Assembly (NCBI GenBank): GCA_902781095.1
Contig: CACZHW010000005.1
Span: forward strand, 62,001 to 126,000
From: an uncultured Eubacteriales bacterium
GTDB taxonomy: Bacteria > Bacillota > Clostridia > Christensenellales > Aristaeellaceae
Length of the DNA: 64,000 bases
Direction: 5' to 3'
Below are positions 9,628-61,205 of the stretch, one piece after another (within the stretch, counting starts at the first letter, position 1; each line of letters starts with the position of its first letter). The notes under the pieces were generated by a model. It had not been told where the DNA came from and searched no databases. It worked only from the letters and a program-made list of their open reading frames with translations. The position numbers and the translations under genes are program-made.

Positions 9628-10938
9628 ATGCCGCAGCGCATCGTAGAGGTCTCTCCCGGATCGATCGGCGAACACGCCGGTATCCGGGGCGGTGATACGC
9701 TCTTGCGTATCGACGGCGTGCCCGTTTTGGACCTGGTGGACTATCAGTTTCTGACAGCCCGCTCCTCTCTTACCGTAGAGCTCGTTCACTCCGATGGCAC
9801 CCGGCGCGAGGTCCTCATCCACAAGGCTGCCGGCGCGCCCCTCGGCCTGGTGCTTGAGTCCTCCCTCATGAGCAGCCCCAAGACCTGTGCCAATCACTGT
9901 ATCTTCTGCTTTATCGAGCAGATGCCGCCCCATATGCGTGAAAGCCTGTACGTCCGCGATGACGACTGGCGCCTTTCCCTCATGGCCGGCAACTTCGTGA
10001 CGCTGACCAATCTCCCGGAAGCCGAGCTTCAGCGCATCATTGACCGCAAAGCGAGCCCCATCTACATCTCCGTCCATACGACGGACGGCGCGCTCCGCCA
10101 AAGGATGCTGAACCACCGGCACGCGGACAGGATACTGGATCACCTGAAGCGCTTTTCGGACAATGGCATCAGTTTTCACTGCCAGATTGTCCTGTGTCCG
10201 GGAATCAACGACGGCGAACACCTGGACAGGACGCTCCGCGATCTTGCTTCTTTCTCGCCCCACGCGCTCAGCGCGGCGCTGGTCCCGGTCGGGCTCACCA
10301 AATACCGCGATCATCTCTATCCGCTCCGGCCTTACACCCGGTCCGAAGCACAGGCGGTCATCTGGCAGGCCGAGGCTTTTCAGCAGATCATGCTCAGCAA
10401 AGCAGGAACGCGATTCGTCTTCCCTTCTGACGAGTTCTATCAAATCGCCGGCTTTCCGATACCGCCGGATGAAGCCTACGAGGAGTACCCACAGTACGAA
10501 AACGGCGTGGGGCTGCTGCGGCGCCTGCAGGATGAATTCGAAGCCGCCTGTTCTTTGGAAGAGCCCCTTCAGGCACAGAGAAAACGGCGTGTCATCGTTG
10601 CGACCGGCACTTCTGTGGCGCCGTTCATGGCAGCGCTCCTGTCCGCCCATCCCATCGAAGGGCTCGCCGTCACCGTTCAGCCGATCCGAAATCGGTTTTT
10701 CGGAGAGACGGTGACCGTCTCCGGCCTGATCACCGGCCAGGATCTGGTCTCCCAGCTGAAAGGCTGTGCAGCAGATGAAATCCTGATCACCGAAAACATG
10801 CTCCGAAAAGGAGACGACGTCTTTCTCGATAATCTTTCCCTCCCGGAAGCGATAGAGCAGCTCGGAATTCCGATCCGTCCCGTCCCGGACGACGGCGGCG
10901 CTTTACTGGATGCCCTGCTCGGTAAGGAGTTGTCATGA
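9628..10938 (+). CDS. DUF512 protein with N-terminal PDZ and radical-SAM-like cysteine cluster
   Basis: A protein of about 436 residues. A PDZ-like domain occupies residues 1-75 (PGSIGEHAGIRGGDTLLRI). CANHCIFC follows at about residue 90 and fits the CxxxCxxC motif of radical SAM enzymes. A conserved DUF512 C-terminal region contains VATGTSVAPFMAA. The family is widespread in Clostridia next to der; its substrate is not established. The start at 9628 has AAAGGAG upstream; the longer open frame from 9481 covers the promoter region and is less likely. The stop overlaps der by four bases. Confidence 0.88.
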   Translation: MPQRIVEVSPGSIGEHAGIRGGDTLLRIDGVPVLDLVDYQFLTARSSLTVELVHSDGTRREVLIHKAAGAPLGLVLESSLMSSPKTCANHCIFCFIEQMPPHMRESLYVRDDDWRLSLMAGNFVTLTNLPEAELQRIIDRKASPIYISVHTTDGALRQRMLNHRHADRILDHLKRFSDNGISFHCQIVLCPGINDGEHLDRTLRDLASFSPHALSAALVPVGLTKYRDHLYPLRPYTRSEAQAVIWQAEAFQQIMLSKAGTRFVFPSDEFYQIAGFPIPPDEAYEEYPQYENGVGLLRRLQDEFEAACSLEEPLQAQRKRRVIVATGTSVAPFMAALLSAHPIEGLAVTVQPIRNRFFGETVTVSGLITGQDLVSQLKGCAADEILITENMLRKGDDVFLDNLSLPEAIEQLGIPIRPVPDDGGALLDALLGKELS

Positions 10939-52676: not shown

Positions 52677-55619
52677 ATGTCCGATTGCTACCGTCTGGGG
52701 CTGGATATCGGTTCCACGACCATCAAGTGCGTCCTGCTGGATCAGGACGACCACATCGTTTACAGCTGCTATGAGCGGCACTTTTCCCTCATCACACAGA
52801 AAACGCGCGAACTGCTGACCAAGATCGACGCCGATATCGTAAAGGGCAAGCCGGTCCAGCTGTGCATCTCCGGTTCCGCGGGCATGGGGCTCGCCCTGGG
52901 CTCCAACATCCCCTTCGTGCAGGAGGTTTACGCCACCAAGGTCGCCGTCGACCGCTACCGGCCCGGGACGGACGTCGTCATTGAGCTGGGCGGTGAAGAC
53001 GCCAAAATACTGTTCCTGAAGGGTACGCTCGAAGTCCGCATGAACGGCTCCTGCGCCGGCGGCACCGGCGCTTTCATCGACCAGATGGCGACGCTGCTCG
53101 GAATCACCCCCGACGAAATGAACCGCCTGGCCGCCAAAGCGGAGCGGACCTACACTATCGCGTCCCGCTGCGGCGTCTTCGCCAAGACCGACGTGCAGCC
53201 CCTGCTCAACCAGGGTGCCAAGCACACGGACGTCTCCCGTTCCATCTTCATGGCGGTCGTCAACCAGACGATTGCCGGCCTCGCCCAGGGCAGGCCGATC
53301 GAAGGGAACGTCGTCTACCTCGGCGGGCCGCTTACCTTCCTCTCGGAGCTGCGCAGCTGCTTTGACGAGACGCTGAAGCTCAAAGGCGTATGCCCGGAGA
53401 ACTCCCTCTACTACGTCGCCATCGGCGCGGCCTGGCAGCCCTCGCCGCTGCTGCTTCTCTCCGACTGTGTCGAGGCGATCGACGCCTTCCACAGCACGGA
53501 GAGCTACCGGGCGCTTCCGCCTCTGTTCTCCTCCCAGGAGGAGCTGAACGCTTTCCTCAGCCGGCACGCCTCGGCAAAGGTCAAAAAAGCCGATCCCGAC
53601 ACCTACAGGGGGCGGGTTTTCGTCGGCATAGACTCCGGCTCCACGACCATCAAATCCGCCGTCATCTCGGAAAACGGCGAGCTTCTGTTTACCCGGTACC
53701 AGTCCAACAGCGGGGATCCCGTCCCCCACGTGCGGGATTTTCTCCTTGATCTCCGTTCGAAATACCCCCAGTGGGAAATCGCGTCCAGCGCCGTCACAGG
53801 CTACGGTGAGGACATGATCCGCAGCGCGTTCGGCGTCAACCTGGGCATCGTCGAGACCATCGCGCACTATACCGCCGCCAAATCCTTCATGCCGGACGTC
53901 GACTTTATCATCGACATCGGCGGCCAGGACATCAAATGCTTCAAAATCCGCGGCGGCGTCATCGACAACATCTTTTTGAACGAGGCCTGTTCCTCCGGCT
54001 GCGGCTCCTTCCTGCAGACCTTTGCCAACGCGCTCGGCTATGACATCGGCGAGTTTGCGAAGCTGGGCCTGGCCTCCAGAAAGCCCGTCGACCTCGGTTC
54101 CCGCTGCACCGTCTTTATGAACTCCTCCGTCAAGCAGGCCCAGAAAGACGGCGCGGACATCACCGACATTTCCGCCGGACTGTCCATCTCCGTCGTCAAA
54201 AACGCGCTGTACAAGGTCATCCGCTGCTCCGGTCCGGAGGACCTGGGCCACCGCATCGTCGTCCAGGGCGGCACGTTCCTCAACGACGCCGTTCTGCGCG
54301 CCTTTGAAAAAGAACTGAATACGGAAGTCATCCGGCCGGACATCTCCGGCCTCATGGGCGCGTACGGCGCCGCGCTGTACGCGATGGACCAGCAGAAGAG
54401 GCACCCCGTCCAGAGCACGCTGCTCTCCTACGAAGAGCTCGCGGGCTTCAGGCAGGACGTCCGCCAGACCCGCTGCGGCCTTTGCGAGAACCACTGCCGG
54501 CTGACCATCAGCACTTTCCCGGGCGGCAGGCGTTTCATCAGCGGCAACCGCTGCGACAGGCCGGTCAAGGGCGAACGCGCGGACAGCGGTCTTAACCTCT
54601 ATGCCTACAAGCAGCAGCTGCTCAGCCGGCTCCGCGACAGCCATCCGGCGGACGCGCCCCGCGGCAAAATCGGTCTCCCACTCGCACTCAACCTGTACGA
54701 ACTGCTGCCCTTCTGGCACGCGCTGTTCACACAGCTGGGGTTCGACGTCGTCGTCTCACCCTTCTCCGGCAGGAGCCTGTACATCGCCGGACAGTCGACC
54801 ATCCCTTCCGATACGGTCTGCTTCCCGGCAAAGCTCGTGCACGGGCACATCGACTGGCTCATCCGCAACGGCGTGGGGACCGTCTTCTACCCTTGCATGA
54901 GTTACAACATCGACGAAAAGCTGGGTGACAACCACTACAACTGCCCCGTCGTCGCCTACTATCCGGAGGTCGTCGCCGCCAATATCCCCGCCGTACGCTC
55001 TATCCGCTTTATTCACGGCTACCTCGGCATCGATCACCGCCGTGATTTCCCGGGGAAGCTCTTCGCGCTGCTGCGGCAGTATTACCCCGATCTGGAAAAG
55101 AAAGAGGTGCGCCGGGCCTGCGACGCCGCCTATGACGCGTACGAGCGCTATATGCAGGACGTCCGCCGCGAAGGAGCCTCCTACATTGAGAAAGCCCGTC
55201 AGGAAGGCCGCCGGATCATCGTGCTGGCCGGCCGGCCTTACCACGTCGATCCGGAGACCAACCACGGCATCGACCGTCTGATCGCCGGGTTCGGCGCCGC
55301 CGTCGTGACGGAAGACGCGCTCTCCTGGCACATGCACAAGGAGCCGACCGGCGTCCTCAACCAATGGACGTATCACGCCCGGCTCTATGCCAGCGCCCGG
55401 TATATCGCCACGCAGCCCGACATGGACCTCGTTCAGCTCGTCTCCTTCGGTTGCGGCGTCGATGCGATCACCACGGACGAGGTCCGCGAGATTCTGGAAA
55501 GCCGGGGCAAGATTTACACGCAGATCAAGATTGATGAGATCACCAACCTGGGTGCGGTGCGCATCAGGCTCCGCTCTCTGTTTGCCGCCATCGATCAACA
55601 AGCGCAGAGGGGGGCCTGA
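52677..55619 (+). CDS. 2-hydroxyacyl-CoA dehydratase activase-related protein: two BadF/HgdC ATPase domains plus DUF2229
   Basis: A 980-residue protein. Domain 1 (about 1-290) has GLDIGSTTIKCVLLD, NGSCAGGTGAF and ASRCGVF. Domain 2 (about 315-590) has GIDSGSTTIKSAVIS, NEACSSGCGSF and GSRCTVF. Each repeat keeps the two Cys positions that bridge the [4Fe-4S] cluster in HgdC activators. A DUF2229-like segment follows with CGLCENHC and further Cys. Activators use ATP to push an electron into a dehydratase. Relatives are often one chain of about 1,400 residues; here the final part is a separate gene two bases downstream. The native target is unknown. Confidence 0.9.
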   Translation: MSDCYRLGLDIGSTTIKCVLLDQDDHIVYSCYERHFSLITQKTRELLTKIDADIVKGKPVQLCISGSAGMGLALGSNIPFVQEVYATKVAVDRYRPGTDVVIELGGEDAKILFLKGTLEVRMNGSCAGGTGAFIDQMATLLGITPDEMNRLAAKAERTYTIASRCGVFAKTDVQPLLNQGAKHTDVSRSIFMAVVNQTIAGLAQGRPIEGNVVYLGGPLTFLSELRSCFDETLKLKGVCPENSLYYVAIGAAWQPSPLLLLSDCVEAIDAFHSTESYRALPPLFSSQEELNAFLSRHASAKVKKADPDTYRGRVFVGIDSGSTTIKSAVISENGELLFTRYQSNSGDPVPHVRDFLLDLRSKYPQWEIASSAVTGYGEDMIRSAFGVNLGIVETIAHYTAAKSFMPDVDFIIDIGGQDIKCFKIRGGVIDNIFLNEACSSGCGSFLQTFANALGYDIGEFAKLGLASRKPVDLGSRCTVFMNSSVKQAQKDGADITDISAGLSISVVKNALYKVIRCSGPEDLGHRIVVQGGTFLNDAVLRAFEKELNTEVIRPDISGLMGAYGAALYAMDQQKRHPVQSTLLSYEELAGFRQDVRQTRCGLCENHCRLTISTFPGGRRFISGNRCDRPVKGERADSGLNLYAYKQQLLSRLRDSHPADAPRGKIGLPLALNLYELLPFWHALFTQLGFDVVVSPFSGRSLYIAGQSTIPSDTVCFPAKLVHGHIDWLIRNGVGTVFYPCMSYNIDEKLGDNHYNCPVVAYYPEVVAANIPAVRSIRFIHGYLGIDHRRDFPGKLFALLRQYYPDLEKKEVRRACDAAYDAYERYMQDVRREGASYIEKARQEGRRIIVLAGRPYHVDPETNHGIDRLIAGFGAAVVTEDALSWHMHKEPTGVLNQWTYHARLYASARYIATQPDMDLVQLVSFGCGVDAITTDEVREILESRGKIYTQIKIDEITNLGAVRIRLRSLFAAIDQQAQRGA

Positions 55620-55621
55620 GC

Positions 55622-56968
55622 GTGGACAGCGAACACGTCGAGTTTACAAAGGAGATGCGGGAGGCGGGCTACACCATCCTCATCCCCAATATGCTGGAGT
55701 TCCACTTCTCTCTGATCGAGAAGGTGCTGCGTTTAAACGGCTATAACGCCGTCGTGCTCCACAACAGCGGCCCGGGCGTCATGGCCGAAGGGCTCAAGTA
55801 CGTCCACAACGACACCTGCGTCCCCGCCCTGCTGGTCATCGGCCAGTTCCTGGATGCGCTCCATTCCGGCGAATACGACCTGAACAAGGTCGCCCTCATG
55901 ATCACCCAGACGGGCGGCGGCTGCCGCGCCAGCAATTACATCTTCCTGCTCCGGAAGGCGCTCAAAAAGGCCGGGCTCTCGCAGATTCCGGTCATCTCCG
56001 TCAATCTGTCCGGCCTGGAGAAGGCCTCCGGCTTCAAGATCACCGTCCCGCTCATCCGGCAGCTCGTCGCCTCCCTGGTTTACGGCGACTGCATCATGTG
56101 CGTCTCCAACCAGACGCGGCCTTACGAGCAGCACAAGGGCGATACGAACGCGCTCATCGAAAAATGGAACGACGCGCTCATTGGCCAGTATAACAAGGGC
56201 CGCGGCCTTTCCCGCCGGGATATGCGCGAAAACCTCCGCGCAATCGTCAATGACTTCGACAACATTGGCAGAAGCCGGGAACGGAAGACGCGCGTGGGCA
56301 TCGTCGGCGAAATCTACGTCAAGTACTCCTCTCTGGGCAACAACGGTCTGGAGGCCTTCCTGCAGACGCAGGACTGCGAATACATGCTTCCCGGCATTAT
56401 GGCCTTTATCGAGTTCAAGATCGACAACCGCGTGGAAGACATCCGTCTTTACGGAGGCAGCCGTCTAAAGAAGATCTTCTGCCAGCTGTTTCTCCGCTAC
56501 GTGGAGAGCATGGAGCGCATGCTGATCGAAGCGGTCGCCGCCCACCCCGCTTTTGTTCCGCCCACGGCCTACCAGCACATCAAGGGGCTCGTGGACGGCG
56601 TCATCGGCTACGGCAGCAAGATGGGCGAAGGATGGCTGCTGACCGCCGAGATGCTGGAGCTTGCGGAAAACGGCTATGAAAACATCATCTGCACGCAGCC
56701 CTTCGGCTGCCTGCCCAACCACATCAACGGCAAGGGAATGATCCGCCGGCTGACGGAAGTCCACCCCGGCATCAACATCGTTCCCATCGACTACGACCTC
56801 TCCGCGACCAAGGTCAATCAGGAGAACCGCATCCGCCTCATGCTCGCCGTCGCAAAAGACGCCGAGGCAAAGGCTGCCGCACAGCGGCAGCTGCTCGAAC
56901 AGGAGCATCTGGCCGAGGAGGCCGCCGCGGCCTGGGAAGCCCGTCCAAAGGCGGATTCTTCGAAGTAA
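55622..56968 (+). CDS. 2-hydroxyacyl-CoA dehydratase-like (HgdB/D-type) protein, partner of the upstream activase
   Basis: A 448-residue protein beginning at GTG 55622 with AGAGGGGGG upstream. YVHNDTCVPALLVIGQFLDA and TQTGGGCRASNYIFLLRKAL keep Cys residues typical of HgdB-like Fe-S proteins, as does the later CTQPFGCLPNHINGKGM. It corresponds to the C-terminal part of the fused proteins of about 1,400 residues. It lies in another frame from the activase but has its own start and ribosome site, so I read a natural split rather than a frameshift. A double-stranded terminator follows. Confidence 0.85.
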   Translation: MDSEHVEFTKEMREAGYTILIPNMLEFHFSLIEKVLRLNGYNAVVLHNSGPGVMAEGLKYVHNDTCVPALLVIGQFLDALHSGEYDLNKVALMITQTGGGCRASNYIFLLRKALKKAGLSQIPVISVNLSGLEKASGFKITVPLIRQLVASLVYGDCIMCVSNQTRPYEQHKGDTNALIEKWNDALIGQYNKGRGLSRRDMRENLRAIVNDFDNIGRSRERKTRVGIVGEIYVKYSSLGNNGLEAFLQTQDCEYMLPGIMAFIEFKIDNRVEDIRLYGGSRLKKIFCQLFLRYVESMERMLIEAVAAHPAFVPPTAYQHIKGLVDGVIGYGSKMGEGWLLTAEMLELAENGYENIICTQPFGCLPNHINGKGMIRRLTEVHPGINIVPIDYDLSATKVNQENRIRLMLAVAKDAEAKAAAQRQLLEQEHLAEEAAAAWEARPKADSSK

Positions 56969-57267: not shown

Positions 57268-58395
57268 TTAGGGGGCGGTGCGCGTATCCACAACGCCCGC
57301 GTAATCCCAGTTTCCGTCCATCAGGGCAAAGATCCCGACCGCTCCCGGTTCGATCCGGCCATATTCAGCAGCGCCCACGGAGTCGGCCGGCGTGCGGGTC
57401 GCCATGGGAATGACGGTCTCCGGACTCATTCCGGCCAGGCGGATCATATTCGTCACCGCGCGGTGCAGGACGAGGGTGGACCCCGCCAACACGCCGCTCT
57501 CCAGCCGCGCGGCTCCGCCTTTCACGATGACGCGCTGGCCGCCCAGCTCATACTCCCCCTCCGGGAGCCCCGCAGCCTCCATCGAATCCGAAATCAGCGC
57601 GACGCCTTTGCTTCCCTTGCACAACGCCGCGATCCTCAGAACGTCCGGGTGGAGGTGAATTCCGTCCGCAATCATCTGCACCAGGATGCGGTCGTCCGCA
57701 AGCCCGGCCCCGGGGATCCCCGGTTTCCGATGATGCAGCGGCGTCTGCGCGTTGAACAGATGCGTTATCTGCGTGAGACCTGCGTCCGCAGCCGCGTGGA
57801 TATCCTCAGCCGACGCCCCGGAGTGCGCCGCACAGGTCACAATTCCGCGCGCCGCCAGTGTCCGGATGAGTTCCGTCGCCCCAGGGAGCTCCGGCGCAAG
57901 CGTCATCATCCGCACACAGCGGATTCCCCGGGTCAGCTGCCCGTAAGCCTCCGCTGACGGAGCCATCAGGCACTCCTCGCGCTGGGCTCCTTTGTAGGAA
58001 GGGTTCAAAAACGGCGCTTCCATGTGGGCGCCCAGTACTGCGGCACCGCTAGGCTCCTGCCGGTCGCAGACCGCCTGTATGCCTGAAAGAGCCGATCGGG
58101 TCTCCTCCTTCGTCGCGCTCATCGTCGTCGGCACAAAAGCCGCCGTACCGGTCTCAAGCAGGCCGCGGCTCATCGCGCGCACGTCCGCCTCCCCGCGCAT
58201 GCAGTCCGCGCCGCCATACGCATGGATATGGATATCCACAAACCCCGGCAGCACGTGATTTCCGCCGCAGTCGTACACGCGCTCGCCCGCCTCTGGCGTC
58301 AGATCCCCGATTCCGGTGATCCGACCGCCTGCCGTCCGCACCGATGCGCGGATGAAACGCCCGTCGACAAACAGCAGCCCGTTTTCAAGCAGCAT
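57268..58395 (-). CDS. nagA: N-acetylglucosamine-6-phosphate deacetylase
   Basis: A 375-residue amidohydrolase. GFVDIHIHAYGGAD gives the metal His pair, GAHMEAPFLNP contains the metal Glu, and CAAHSGAS and ITHLFNAQTPLHHR supply further ligands; LISDSMEAAG holds the catalytic Asp. It converts GlcNAc-6-P to GlcN-6-P and acetate. HMEAPF and SDSM differ from the usual HLEGPF and TDAM but keep the key residues. ATG at 58395 follows GGGGGAG, 19 bases after nagB. Confidence 0.94.
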   Translation of the reverse strand: MLLENGLLFVDGRFIRASVRTAGGRITGIGDLTPEAGERVYDCGGNHVLPGFVDIHIHAYGGADCMRGEADVRAMSRGLLETGTAAFVPTTMSATKEETRSALSGIQAVCDRQEPSGAAVLGAHMEAPFLNPSYKGAQREECLMAPSAEAYGQLTRGIRCVRMMTLAPELPGATELIRTLAARGIVTCAAHSGASAEDIHAAADAGLTQITHLFNAQTPLHHRKPGIPGAGLADDRILVQMIADGIHLHPDVLRIAALCKGSKGVALISDSMEAAGLPEGEYELGGQRVIVKGGAARLESGVLAGSTLVLHRAVTNMIRLAGMSPETVIPMATRTPADSVGAAEYGRIEPGAVGIFALMDGNWDYAGVVDTRTAP

Positions 58396-58414
58396 GCTTC
58401 TCCCCCTTTTTGAA

Positions 58415-59137
58415 TCAATCCGTCATGAGCTTCCCGGCTTCCCGGTCCGTCAGGATGACGCAGCACGGATGAAGCTGAAGGATCGACGCGGGTACCTCCG
58501 GCGTGATCGGACCGCGGATGGTCCGGTAAACGGCGTTCGCCTTGCTTTCGCCGGTCGCCACCAGCACGACGCACCGGGCGCTCATGATGTTCCCGATCCC
58601 CATGGAAATCGCCTGGCGCGGCACGTCGTCCGCGCTGTTGAAAAAGCGCGCGTTGGCTTCAATGGTGTCCTCCGTCAGCGTCACCACGTGCGTGCCATAC
58701 GTAAAATCCGCCGCCGGCTCGTTGAAACCGATGTGTCCGTTACGCCCGATTCCGAGCAGCTGGATATCGATGCCGCCCGCCTGCCGGATGGCCTCGTCAT
58801 AAGCCACGCCGTCCAGCGAAGAACGCCCGCTGGGCAGATGGACGTTTTCGGGCCGCAGATTGACCTTGCTGAAGAGATGCTCTTCCATAAACGAATGATA
58901 GGAAAGCGGATTCTTTTCGTCGATACCGACATACTCGTCCAGGTTGAAGGTGCGGACACGGTCGAAGTCGATCACGCCCCGCTTGTACCAGGAAACGAGC
59001 ATCTCGTACGCAGGGATGGGGGTCGACCCTGTCGCCAGTCCCAGTACGCTGTCGCCCTTCCTCGTGATCTGCGCCGCGATCAGCACGCCGGCCGCTTCAC
59101 AGGCTGCCCTCGCATTTTCATAGACGTGAAATTCCAT
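58415..59137 (-). CDS. nagB: Glucosamine-6-phosphate deaminase
   Basis: A 240-residue enzyme. LGLATGSTPIPAYEML binds phosphate, FNLDEYVGI holds the catalytic Asp, and GIGRNGHIGFNEP is the NagB hallmark. It converts GlcN-6-P to fructose-6-P and ammonia, completing amino-sugar catabolism with NagA. ATG at 59137 has AAAGGAGGAGGA upstream. It is 44 bases downstream of the Hsp70-like gene with no obvious separate promoter, so it is probably co-transcribed. Confidence 0.96.
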   Translation of the reverse strand: MEFHVYENARAACEAAGVLIAAQITRKGDSVLGLATGSTPIPAYEMLVSWYKRGVIDFDRVRTFNLDEYVGIDEKNPLSYHSFMEEHLFSKVNLRPENVHLPSGRSSLDGVAYDEAIRQAGGIDIQLLGIGRNGHIGFNEPAADFTYGTHVVTLTEDTIEANARFFNSADDVPRQAISMGIGNIMSARCVVLVATGESKANAVYRTIRGPITPEVPASILQLHPCCVILTDREAGKLMTD

Positions 59138-59181: not shown

Positions 59182-61086
59182 TCAAGCTGAAATGGACATC
59201 TCCGCGTTTTTGGCCATCTGTTCCAACTGGGCACCCAGCGTCTCGCCGAGGCTTTGAGTCAGCCGTGCGGCGAAGCCGTTCGCCGGATCCGCCAGGCTGC
59301 TGATGATTTCCCGCTTGATGTCTTCTTTTTGCCGCTCCATTCCGCGCCGGACTGCCCGTTCCGTAACGAGCCCGCGCAGGAAAACCGGAATTGTCGCACG
59401 CCGGAGCGCTTTCTCCATACCGGATCGCCCGATGAGCGCCACCAGGATGCCCACGACGGCGCCCGTCAGGATCCCGACCGGCCCCGTTCCGATCACCGCA
59501 ATCCCTCCGCCGCCGCACACGGCCGCGCCGATCGCCGCGAAGACGACGCCCATCAGTCCGGAAAGCCAGTCCATCCCCATCGCGTCCGTCAGGGACAGCT
59601 TTACCCCCGAGAGGCCCGTCCTGAGCGGCATCGCCCCCAGCGACATATGCTCCGGCGGCACGCCGCAGCGCACGCACAGCGCGGTCAGTTCGTTTTCCAG
59701 CGTCCGCATGAGGCCCGAAAGCCACGACTGAACGGCGTCCTCAAGCCCCGAACGGACGGCGTCTCCGGAAAAGGCAGCCGCAATCTTCTGGCCGATCATG
59801 GCGTCCAGTTCGTCGACGGTCGAAATGCCGCCGTGCTTCCACAGCCCGACGGACTCCAGCGTGCTGTCCACCGCCACGCTGTAGAGCGATTCGGCAATCG
59901 GTTCGTACAGTTCATGCACGCTGGCGGAAACCAGCCTGGACAGGGTTTCGCCATGGGCGATGGACGCGACCTCCCTGCGGAATACCGCAAGATTCTCGTC
60001 GACGCGTCCCGCATACGCCAGACCGCGCGCAATCGAGCACTCCGGCTCCGGCGTCATGACGGAGAGGCTGTCCGGGAACGCCGCGCGGACCTCCTCCTTC
60101 AAAAAGCCCATCCGGCTTGCGCCGCCCGTGAGGATGACGACGCCGGGCGGACACTTCCGGCTCACTTCCGCTGCGGTGCGCAGCGTATCCTGCAGGCAGG
60201 ACAGGAAGCTCTTGCCGCCCAGGGCCGGGATCGGTTCGCGGATCAATTCCTCTACCGCAGAGCGGGTGAGCTTCATCTCCAGGATGAGCGCTTTGTCATA
60301 GCAGACGAGCACGCGCTTGGAAAGGCCGGTGCCCTCGCCTGCTTTTTCATCCAGAAAGTACTTTTCCTTCAGGCGCCTCGCTTCCAGTTCGCAATAGCTG
60401 TACCAGGCCGGGCTTTCCTTCAGTACGCGCTCAAGCTCCGCCCTGTCCGCGCTCGTCTCGACGGCATGCCGCAGGATCAGTTCGTCCAGCAGGCCGCCGC
60501 CCAGATTGGTGTCTCCGAAAAGCGAAAGATCCTGCTGGTGTCCGTCGATGATGTAGGCAAAATCCGTCGTGGAGCTGCCCACGTCGATCACCATGGCGCT
60601 CCTGCGCATCCTGTCCGCGTCGACGCGCAGCCCCCGTGCGTGTCTCGCATAAAGAAAGGCCGCACGCGACTCGGGCACGACGCGCACATTCGGAAAGCCC
60701 GCCGATTCCATCAGCGCGGCGTACTGCTCGCGTCTGCCCTCTCCCCAGCCGGCCGGGCAGCCGACGACGGTGTGGGTGACCTCCGCCATAAGCGCCGGCT
60801 CGCTGCGCATGAGTTCGGCGACGACCCCCTGCGCGAAAGCGCGGATATCCGCCGACGCGGCCGGATCAATCAGATAACGGGATTTGAATCGCACCCGGGC
60901 GTCCTCGGATCCGGCCTGCACGCTGGCCGTGTCGCCGATTACGATCCGCCCGGAAATGTAGCCGACCGCAGAGAGGATCGAGAGCTGTCCCATCAGCGGC
61001 AAAACGCGCGGCTCCACCGCGGAGCTTCCGTCCAGCAGGGTTACGCAGCTTTCGCCGTCACCCAGATCAAAACCCAGTATCTTCAC
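59182..61086 (-). CDS. Hsp70/DnaK-like ATPase with C-terminal glycine-rich membrane segment
   Basis: A protein of about 634 residues. The actin-like ATPase (about 1-370) shows phosphate motif 1 GFDLGDGESCVTLL, phosphate motif 2 VIDVGSSTTDFAY and adenosine motif VILTGGASRMGFL. The usual DnaK substrate-binding domain is not recognisable. Instead a helical region (about 385-500) precedes a long Gly/Ala/Val-rich hydrophobic segment (about 505-555, with AAVCGGGGIAVIGTG) resembling a glycine-zipper hairpin, then an amphipathic helical tail. GTG at 61086 has AGAGGA upstream. It is first in an operon with nagB-nagA-ynzC. Function is unknown; no J-protein or GrpE adjoins it. Confidence 0.82.
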   Translation of the reverse strand: MKILGFDLGDGESCVTLLDGSSAVEPRVLPLMGQLSILSAVGYISGRIVIGDTASVQAGSEDARVRFKSRYLIDPAASADIRAFAQGVVAELMRSEPALMAEVTHTVVGCPAGWGEGRREQYAALMESAGFPNVRVVPESRAAFLYARHARGLRVDADRMRRSAMVIDVGSSTTDFAYIIDGHQQDLSLFGDTNLGGGLLDELILRHAVETSADRAELERVLKESPAWYSYCELEARRLKEKYFLDEKAGEGTGLSKRVLVCYDKALILEMKLTRSAVEELIREPIPALGGKSFLSCLQDTLRTAAEVSRKCPPGVVILTGGASRMGFLKEEVRAAFPDSLSVMTPEPECSIARGLAYAGRVDENLAVFRREVASIAHGETLSRLVSASVHELYEPIAESLYSVAVDSTLESVGLWKHGGISTVDELDAMIGQKIAAAFSGDAVRSGLEDAVQSWLSGLMRTLENELTALCVRCGVPPEHMSLGAMPLRTGLSGVKLSLTDAMGMDWLSGLMGVVFAAIGAAVCGGGGIAVIGTGPVGILTGAVVGILVALIGRSGMEKALRRATIPVFLRGLVTERAVRRGMERQKEDIKREIISSLADPANGFAARLTQSLGETLGAQLEQMAKNAEMSISA

Positions 61087-61177: not shown

Positions 61178-61205
61178 ATTATAACGTTTTGGCCTTTTGT
61201 GTCAA
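61178..61205 (-). promoter_or_regulatory. Promoter for the Hsp70-like-nagBA operon
   Basis: On the complement TTGACA (61205-61200), 16 bases and TATAAT (61183-61178) leave a leader of about 85 bases before the GTG. No CtsR or CIRCE motif is seen, and no amino-sugar operator is recognised. Confidence 0.8.

Follow-up and report, generated by a model that had tools for sequence, protein, structure and literature searches.

The ATPase gene and its surroundings

The window (the whole stretch of 64,000 nucleotides that was analysed) belongs to a 2.7-Mb genome in 50 contigs, which has Candidatus Ventricola MAGs among its close relatives. The list of open reading frames and their translations placed a gene encoding a 634-amino-acid Hsp70-like ATPase on the reverse strand at 59182-61086, with a GTG start at 61086 and a stop at 59182. 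A perfect sigma-70 type promoter, TTGACA-16-TATAAT, lies 5' of the gene on the same strand (61178-61205), matching at 12 of 12 positions as compared with 0.3 such matches expected in the region. The gene next to it on the upstream side is CMP-sugar transferase-like. Downstream are found nagA and nagB (57268-59137, reverse strand), in a nagB/nagA order that is common to several of the closest relatives and was not found in other genera. Homologues of the ATPase share 60-68% identity within the genus and 29-41% when they come from other genera, and the alignments span residues 1-632, thus including the C-terminal region. Since the same genome carries a separate, ordinary DnaK gene on contig C2, with GrpE adjoining, the 634-residue ATPase is not the housekeeping chaperone.

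The N-terminal half is an Hsp70-type nucleotide-binding domain

Residues 1-364 (59995-61086, reverse strand) correspond to a nucleotide-binding domain of the Hsp70 type, as delineated from the Pfam family and from the alignment of an AF2 model to DnaK. Pfam HSP70 (PF00012) matched residues 95-362 with 59.4 bits for a cut-off of 20.6, the DnaK equivalog TIGR02350 was not reached (51.8 bits for a cut-off of 822) and MreB_Mbl stayed below its Pfam cut-off (21.3 bits versus 27). The AF2 model, with a mean pLDDT of 83.7, aligned to DnaK structures with Z scores of about 30-33 across some 333 residues, and all of the structural neighbours listed for it were of the Hsp70 type. Likewise, the best matches of the ATPase profile among PDB sequences were DnaK, BiP and other Hsp70 ATPase domains.

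The three actin-fold nucleotide motifs that a preliminary description had read from the DNA (GFDLGDGES at residues 5-13, DVGSSTTDF at 168-176 and LTGGASRM at 319-326) are all present and conserved. In the alignment to the genome's own DnaK, the phosphate-1 motif (61048-61074, reverse strand) reads GFDLGDGES where DnaK has GIDLGTTNS, so that D10-G11-E12 replaces T-T-N; D7, G9, D10, E12 and S13 are invariant among 81 homologues and G11 is kept in at least 90% of them. The phosphate-2 motif, aligned as IDVGSSTTDF (residues 167-176; 60559-60588, reverse strand), has D168, G170, S171, S172, T173 and D175 invariant in the same set, as are T320, G321, G322 and S324 of the adenosine motif, aligned as LTGGASRMGF (residues 319-328; 60103-60132, reverse strand). 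Residue K68 (60883-60885, reverse strand) took the position of the Hsp70 catalytic lysine in the profile alignment to DnaK, and we take it to be the equivalent of K70 in E. coli DnaK. When the homologues were profile-aligned with the genome's own DnaK, D7, K68, E139, D168, T173 and D175 were found invariant in 81 of 81; their DnaK counterparts are D8, K70, E171, D194, T199 and D201. Because this DnaK-equivalent catalytic set is invariant, the sequence predicts that the 634-residue protein is an active ATPase.

A helical domain, a hydrophobic hairpin and a tail replace the substrate domain

The second half of the protein departs from DnaK. Family matches end by residue 362, nothing was recovered beyond this point in Pfam or NCBIfam, and from about residue 347-364 onwards the AF2 model contains solely helices, with no beta-sandwich substrate domain; the absence of the DnaK peptide-binding domain, proposed from the sequence beforehand, was thus borne out. 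The DnaK linker is also lacking, and a membrane hairpin and a helical tail are added. Searches of PDB and Pfam with a profile of the C-terminal half gave no significant relative, and no likeness of the tail to a characterised soluble chaperone. The best PDB match of this profile, the colicin A pore domain, was non-significant (E 0.3) and was rejected as a fold for the C-terminus.

At the position of the DnaK substrate domain, the AF2 model places a helical domain (residues 365-505; 59572-59994, reverse strand) made of helices 380-417, 424-439 and 442-474, of which the final 25 residues or so are poorly ordered and residues 486-495 are of low confidence. It is followed by a hydrophobic two-helix hairpin (residues 506-563; 59398-59571, reverse strand), delimited from hydropathy, glycine conservation and the AF2 model, in which helices 506-524 and 536-563 are joined by a turn predicted at low confidence. 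All Kyte-Doolittle windows of 19 residues that exceed 1.6 in the ATPase start at residues 505-539 and none elsewhere. The hairpin is hydrophobic in 81 of 81 aligned homologues, with a hydropathy peak of 1.96-2.67 as compared with a median of 1.22 outside it. It also bears a near-invariant glycine cluster, GGxG...GPxGxxxG, in which G525, G526, G528, G535, G538, G542 and G553 are kept in 96-100% of the 81 homologues. These features suggest that the hairpin inserts into the membrane. The last part of the protein is a helical tail (residues 564-634; 59185-59397, reverse strand), modelled by AF2 as helices 576-585, 587-599 and 605-631, where R571 is invariant and P567 and E629 nearly so in the 81 homologues.

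The hydrophobic, glycine-rich segment and the helical tail of the preliminary description are therefore real, but the hairpin is not the whole replacement of the substrate domain, since about 140 residues of helical domain separate it from the nucleotide-binding domain and a helical tail of about 70 residues comes after it. The term "glycine zipper" had to be abandoned, because the GxxxG spacing is no commoner than in shuffled sequences: the ATPase contains two GxxxG motifs (shuffle p 0.90) and the 81 homologues taken together 179 for 149 expected, which is not above shuffles. A more accurate description of the segment is that of a glycine-rich two-helix hairpin.

A two-TM protein is co-inherited with the ATPase

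A survey of the genes around the ATPase homologues recovered one strongly conserved partner, a protein of 260-300 residues with two predicted transmembrane (TM) helices. Its gene is commonly located directly upstream of the ATPase gene on the same strand, and often overlaps or abuts the ATPase start. The partner was present at 99 of about 110 loci, many of which overlap or are related, on the same strand and usually less than 100 bp from the ATPase. For this reason a tally over 150 genomes of the family is the better statistic: the ATPase was found in 54, the partner in 53, both in 53 and the partner alone in none, shared ancestry being ignored in these counts. The two genes are adjacent in 42 of the 53 genomes with the pair, 0.8-1.6 kb apart in four, 8-10 kb apart in two, 119 kb apart in one and on different contigs in four; in three of these last four, the ATPase gene lies at a contig end. 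Other conserved neighbours were set aside as being mostly antisense ORFs of GC-rich DNA or variable between loci. A literature search, with most subscription journals outside its scope, returned no paper on the pair.

For the partner, neither Pfam nor NCBIfam gave a match above cut-off. It carries a conserved C-terminal motif, FDxLPx(3-5)TxRPALxxxGxLLxRGxA. In its AF2 model, helices at the N-terminus precede a pair of adjacent TM helices, after which come one long helix (152-205), a second, shorter one (208-224) and finally six short strands (227-270). That the conserved partner is itself a predicted two-TM membrane protein strengthens the view, put forward when the ATPase was first described, of a membrane-associated and ATP-driven machine; the second attribute is predicted from the invariant catalytic residues.

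The genome of the window is the one in which 119 kb separate the two genes, with the partner at 985-1794 of contig C5 (L114). In the nearest relative (L034), the same arrangement around the ATPase extends across 7 kb at 78% identity, with conservation of the upstream genes and of the promoter, which is kept at the same place with a 16-nt spacer. An assembly error was considered as the cause of the split and judged unlikely because of this 7-kb synteny including the promoter. The partner was not found in the L034 assembly, which fits either its loss or an incomplete assembly.

Is the partner related to GrpE?

The order of elements in the partner, in which a long helix and a shorter helix precede a small six-strand domain, resembles that of GrpE, whereas the two TM helices and the N-terminal helical domain are not found in GrpE. 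In a VIA-align search, GrpE of T. thermophilus (3a6m) ranked second among 976 chains with a Z score of 6.7 over 141 residues (partner residues 134-274); no row attained Z 8, and scores like 6.7 are also obtained with common arrangements. GrpE was missing from the best matches of Foldseek, which gave nothing at all below E 0.001. Early profile comparisons were weak and improved only with cyanobacterial partners: against a profile of 37 GrpE sequences, hhalign returned a probability of 7%, rising to 35% once these partners had been added, and 1 of 150 column-block shuffles scored as well as the latter value. PF01025 (GrpE) had no match in the partner, and the GrpE signature FD-[PA]-x2-[HM]-x-A ... 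GY was not seen in the aligned partners; because this signature is absent, the partner was not filed as a GrpE. Considering these weak lines together with the co-inherited Hsp70 nucleotide-binding domain, we regard a GrpE-like C-terminal half as plausible and slightly favour it.

Distribution of the pair and variant loci

In a sample of 391 genomes of the class, only two matched, that of the window itself and a distant one (E 1e-40). Within Clostridia the unit is thus largely restricted to one family plus scattered genomes; the pair was also seen in a further genome of that class. The ATPase was matched in 9 of 292 genomes of a cyanobacterial phylum sample, and most of the cyanobacterial matches inspected have the partner upstream; the same partner motif occurs in Cyanobacteria. 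A Calothrix copy of the ATPase is located on a conjugative plasmid, where the partner gene (L168, 5009-5815) is frameshifted near its end and the C-terminal motif continues in another frame. In Phormidium (L111), a different glycine-rich membrane protein lies upstream of the homologue instead of the usual partner, and a TIR-domain protein (10105-10788) is encoded just downstream. A spirochaete two-gene unit associates an ATPase without the hairpin with a partner that has TM helices, so that the hairpin is not essential to pairing everywhere. IMG/VR contained no viral homologues of the ATPase, and matches in phage records were confined to the DnaK-like nucleotide-binding domain.

Several loci contain additional genes. 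A 1073-residue zinc-ribbon Ser/Thr kinase with LRR_5 repeats is encoded in two family genomes, at L163 (4068-7286) and L164 (3306-6524), where the members of the pair are 8-10 kb apart; the kinase is directly 5' of the ATPase in L164 and a small membrane-like protein is in between in L163. HerA/VirB4-type ATPases resembling NCBIfam NF033849 follow distant ATPase relatives in L182 (6008-8734), L183 (4749-7460) and L184 (7718-11281), and L184, which has a kinase as well, seemingly represents a larger multi-gene system. The HerA-type gene was discarded as a general third component, being present in just 6 of 150 family genomes and absent from that of the window. Finally, L167 (1341-5259) carries two tandem ATPase copies behind a partner gene, the second of which is divergent and has the phosphate-1 sequence GIDIGQDESS.

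A possible membrane machine built on an Hsp70 engine

The ATPase combines a nucleotide-binding domain whose catalytic residues are intact with a conserved hairpin and has no beta substrate domain, and its co-inheritance with the partner is near-perfect, also where the two genes have been separated. These features point towards a two-protein membrane machine, so far uncharacterised, and away from an ordinary chaperone. Hsp70s are usually viewed as soluble peptide-binding chaperones that are reset by soluble exchange factors. We propose here, with about even confidence, a tethered Hsp70-type ATPase equipped with a helical and hairpin module and served by a GrpE-like exchange-factor partner. The Hsp70-type domain would be in the cytosol, and the helical domain that takes the place of the substrate domain would end in the hairpin, which would insert into the inner membrane or be anchored there, with the helical tail after it. 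The partner would span the membrane twice and expose its long helix and small beta domain on the cytosolic side. ATP binding and hydrolysis would move the helical/hairpin module, which may act as a membrane-embedded lever or assembly switch instead of a peptide clamp, and the C-terminal domain of the partner may dock on the ATPase and reset it at the membrane as a nucleotide-exchange factor of the GrpE type. ATP hydrolysis, membrane insertion, binding of the two proteins and exchange activity are all inferred in this scheme.

The alternative that holds up best, although we consider it unlikely, is a holdase or chaperone that is bound to the membrane and serves the biogenesis of membrane proteins or of the envelope, in which the helical domain would be a new client-binding domain. 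An Hsp70 nucleotide-binding domain with a possible exchange-factor partner would suit such a protein, and the presence of the pair in about one third of the family genomes fits an accessory housekeeping function; against it, no conserved J-domain or client gene was found nearby, and profile searches of PDB and Pfam recognised no client-binding fold.

Somewhat less probable is a stress or conflict module of the defence type, whose ATPase would sense a disturbance and whose glycine-rich hairpin would be the membrane effector. Zinc-ribbon Ser/Thr kinase, HerA/VirB4-type ATPase, TIR protein and integrases do occur beside some relatives, and the similarity to the colicin A pore domain, non-significant as it is, would go in the same direction. 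There is also a precedent, the nearest that has been described for our pair: the GAP1-N2 GTPase-centred conflict systems of firmicutes and actinobacteria include HSP70, GrpE and an HSP70 without peptide-binding domain (PMC7159879). Compared by description, they share with the present unit an HSP70 lacking the peptide-binding domain near an exchange factor, which in our case is a putative one, and differ from it in that no GTPase or FNIII/DnaJ partner was noted at the loci examined here and that both of our proteins are predicted to be membrane proteins. However, PADLOC gave no match for the ATPase of the window or for the partner, the HerA-type gene is rare, and the pair stands as a bare two-gene unit, with varied and unrelated neighbours, in the 42 genomes mentioned above.

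Just as improbable is a cytoskeleton-like scaffold, polymerising or clustering on the membrane like FtsA or MreB with the partner as anchor or positioning factor and without a chaperone-like cycle: secondary Pfam matches to MreB and FtsA, the membrane hairpin and membrane partner, and tandem divergent ATPases in one genome (G058) that could copolymerise speak for it, but the fold is far closer to Hsp70 than to either protein, its structural neighbours are all Hsp70-type and the Hsp70 catalytic residues are retained.

Another atypical bacterial Hsp70-like ATPase, CnuD of the CoCoNuT systems, is encoded beside McrBC-type nucleases, keeps its substrate domain and has degenerate ATPase motifs (PMC11090510); the present ATPase is its opposite on both counts, with the substrate domain absent and the catalytic residues intact. 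Returning to the two-protein membrane machine, we suggest tentatively that it represents a novel class of Hsp70 machine, spread as a two-gene unit through gut Clostridia and Cyanobacteria, combining a membrane-inserting module with an integral-membrane exchange factor and running its cycle on or in the bilayer. If this is true, an Hsp70 engine can drive outputs other than peptide clamping. As only two well-delimited genes are involved, binding, exchange and insertion into the membrane can be put to a direct test.

A further actin-fold-like protein is encoded in the window on the forward strand, as a 980-residue ORF with two ATPase halves (52677-55619) adjoining a 448-residue ORF (55622-56968). 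Recognised by eye, the former presumably resembles the 2-hydroxyacyl-CoA dehydratase activases of the BcrAD-BadFG type.
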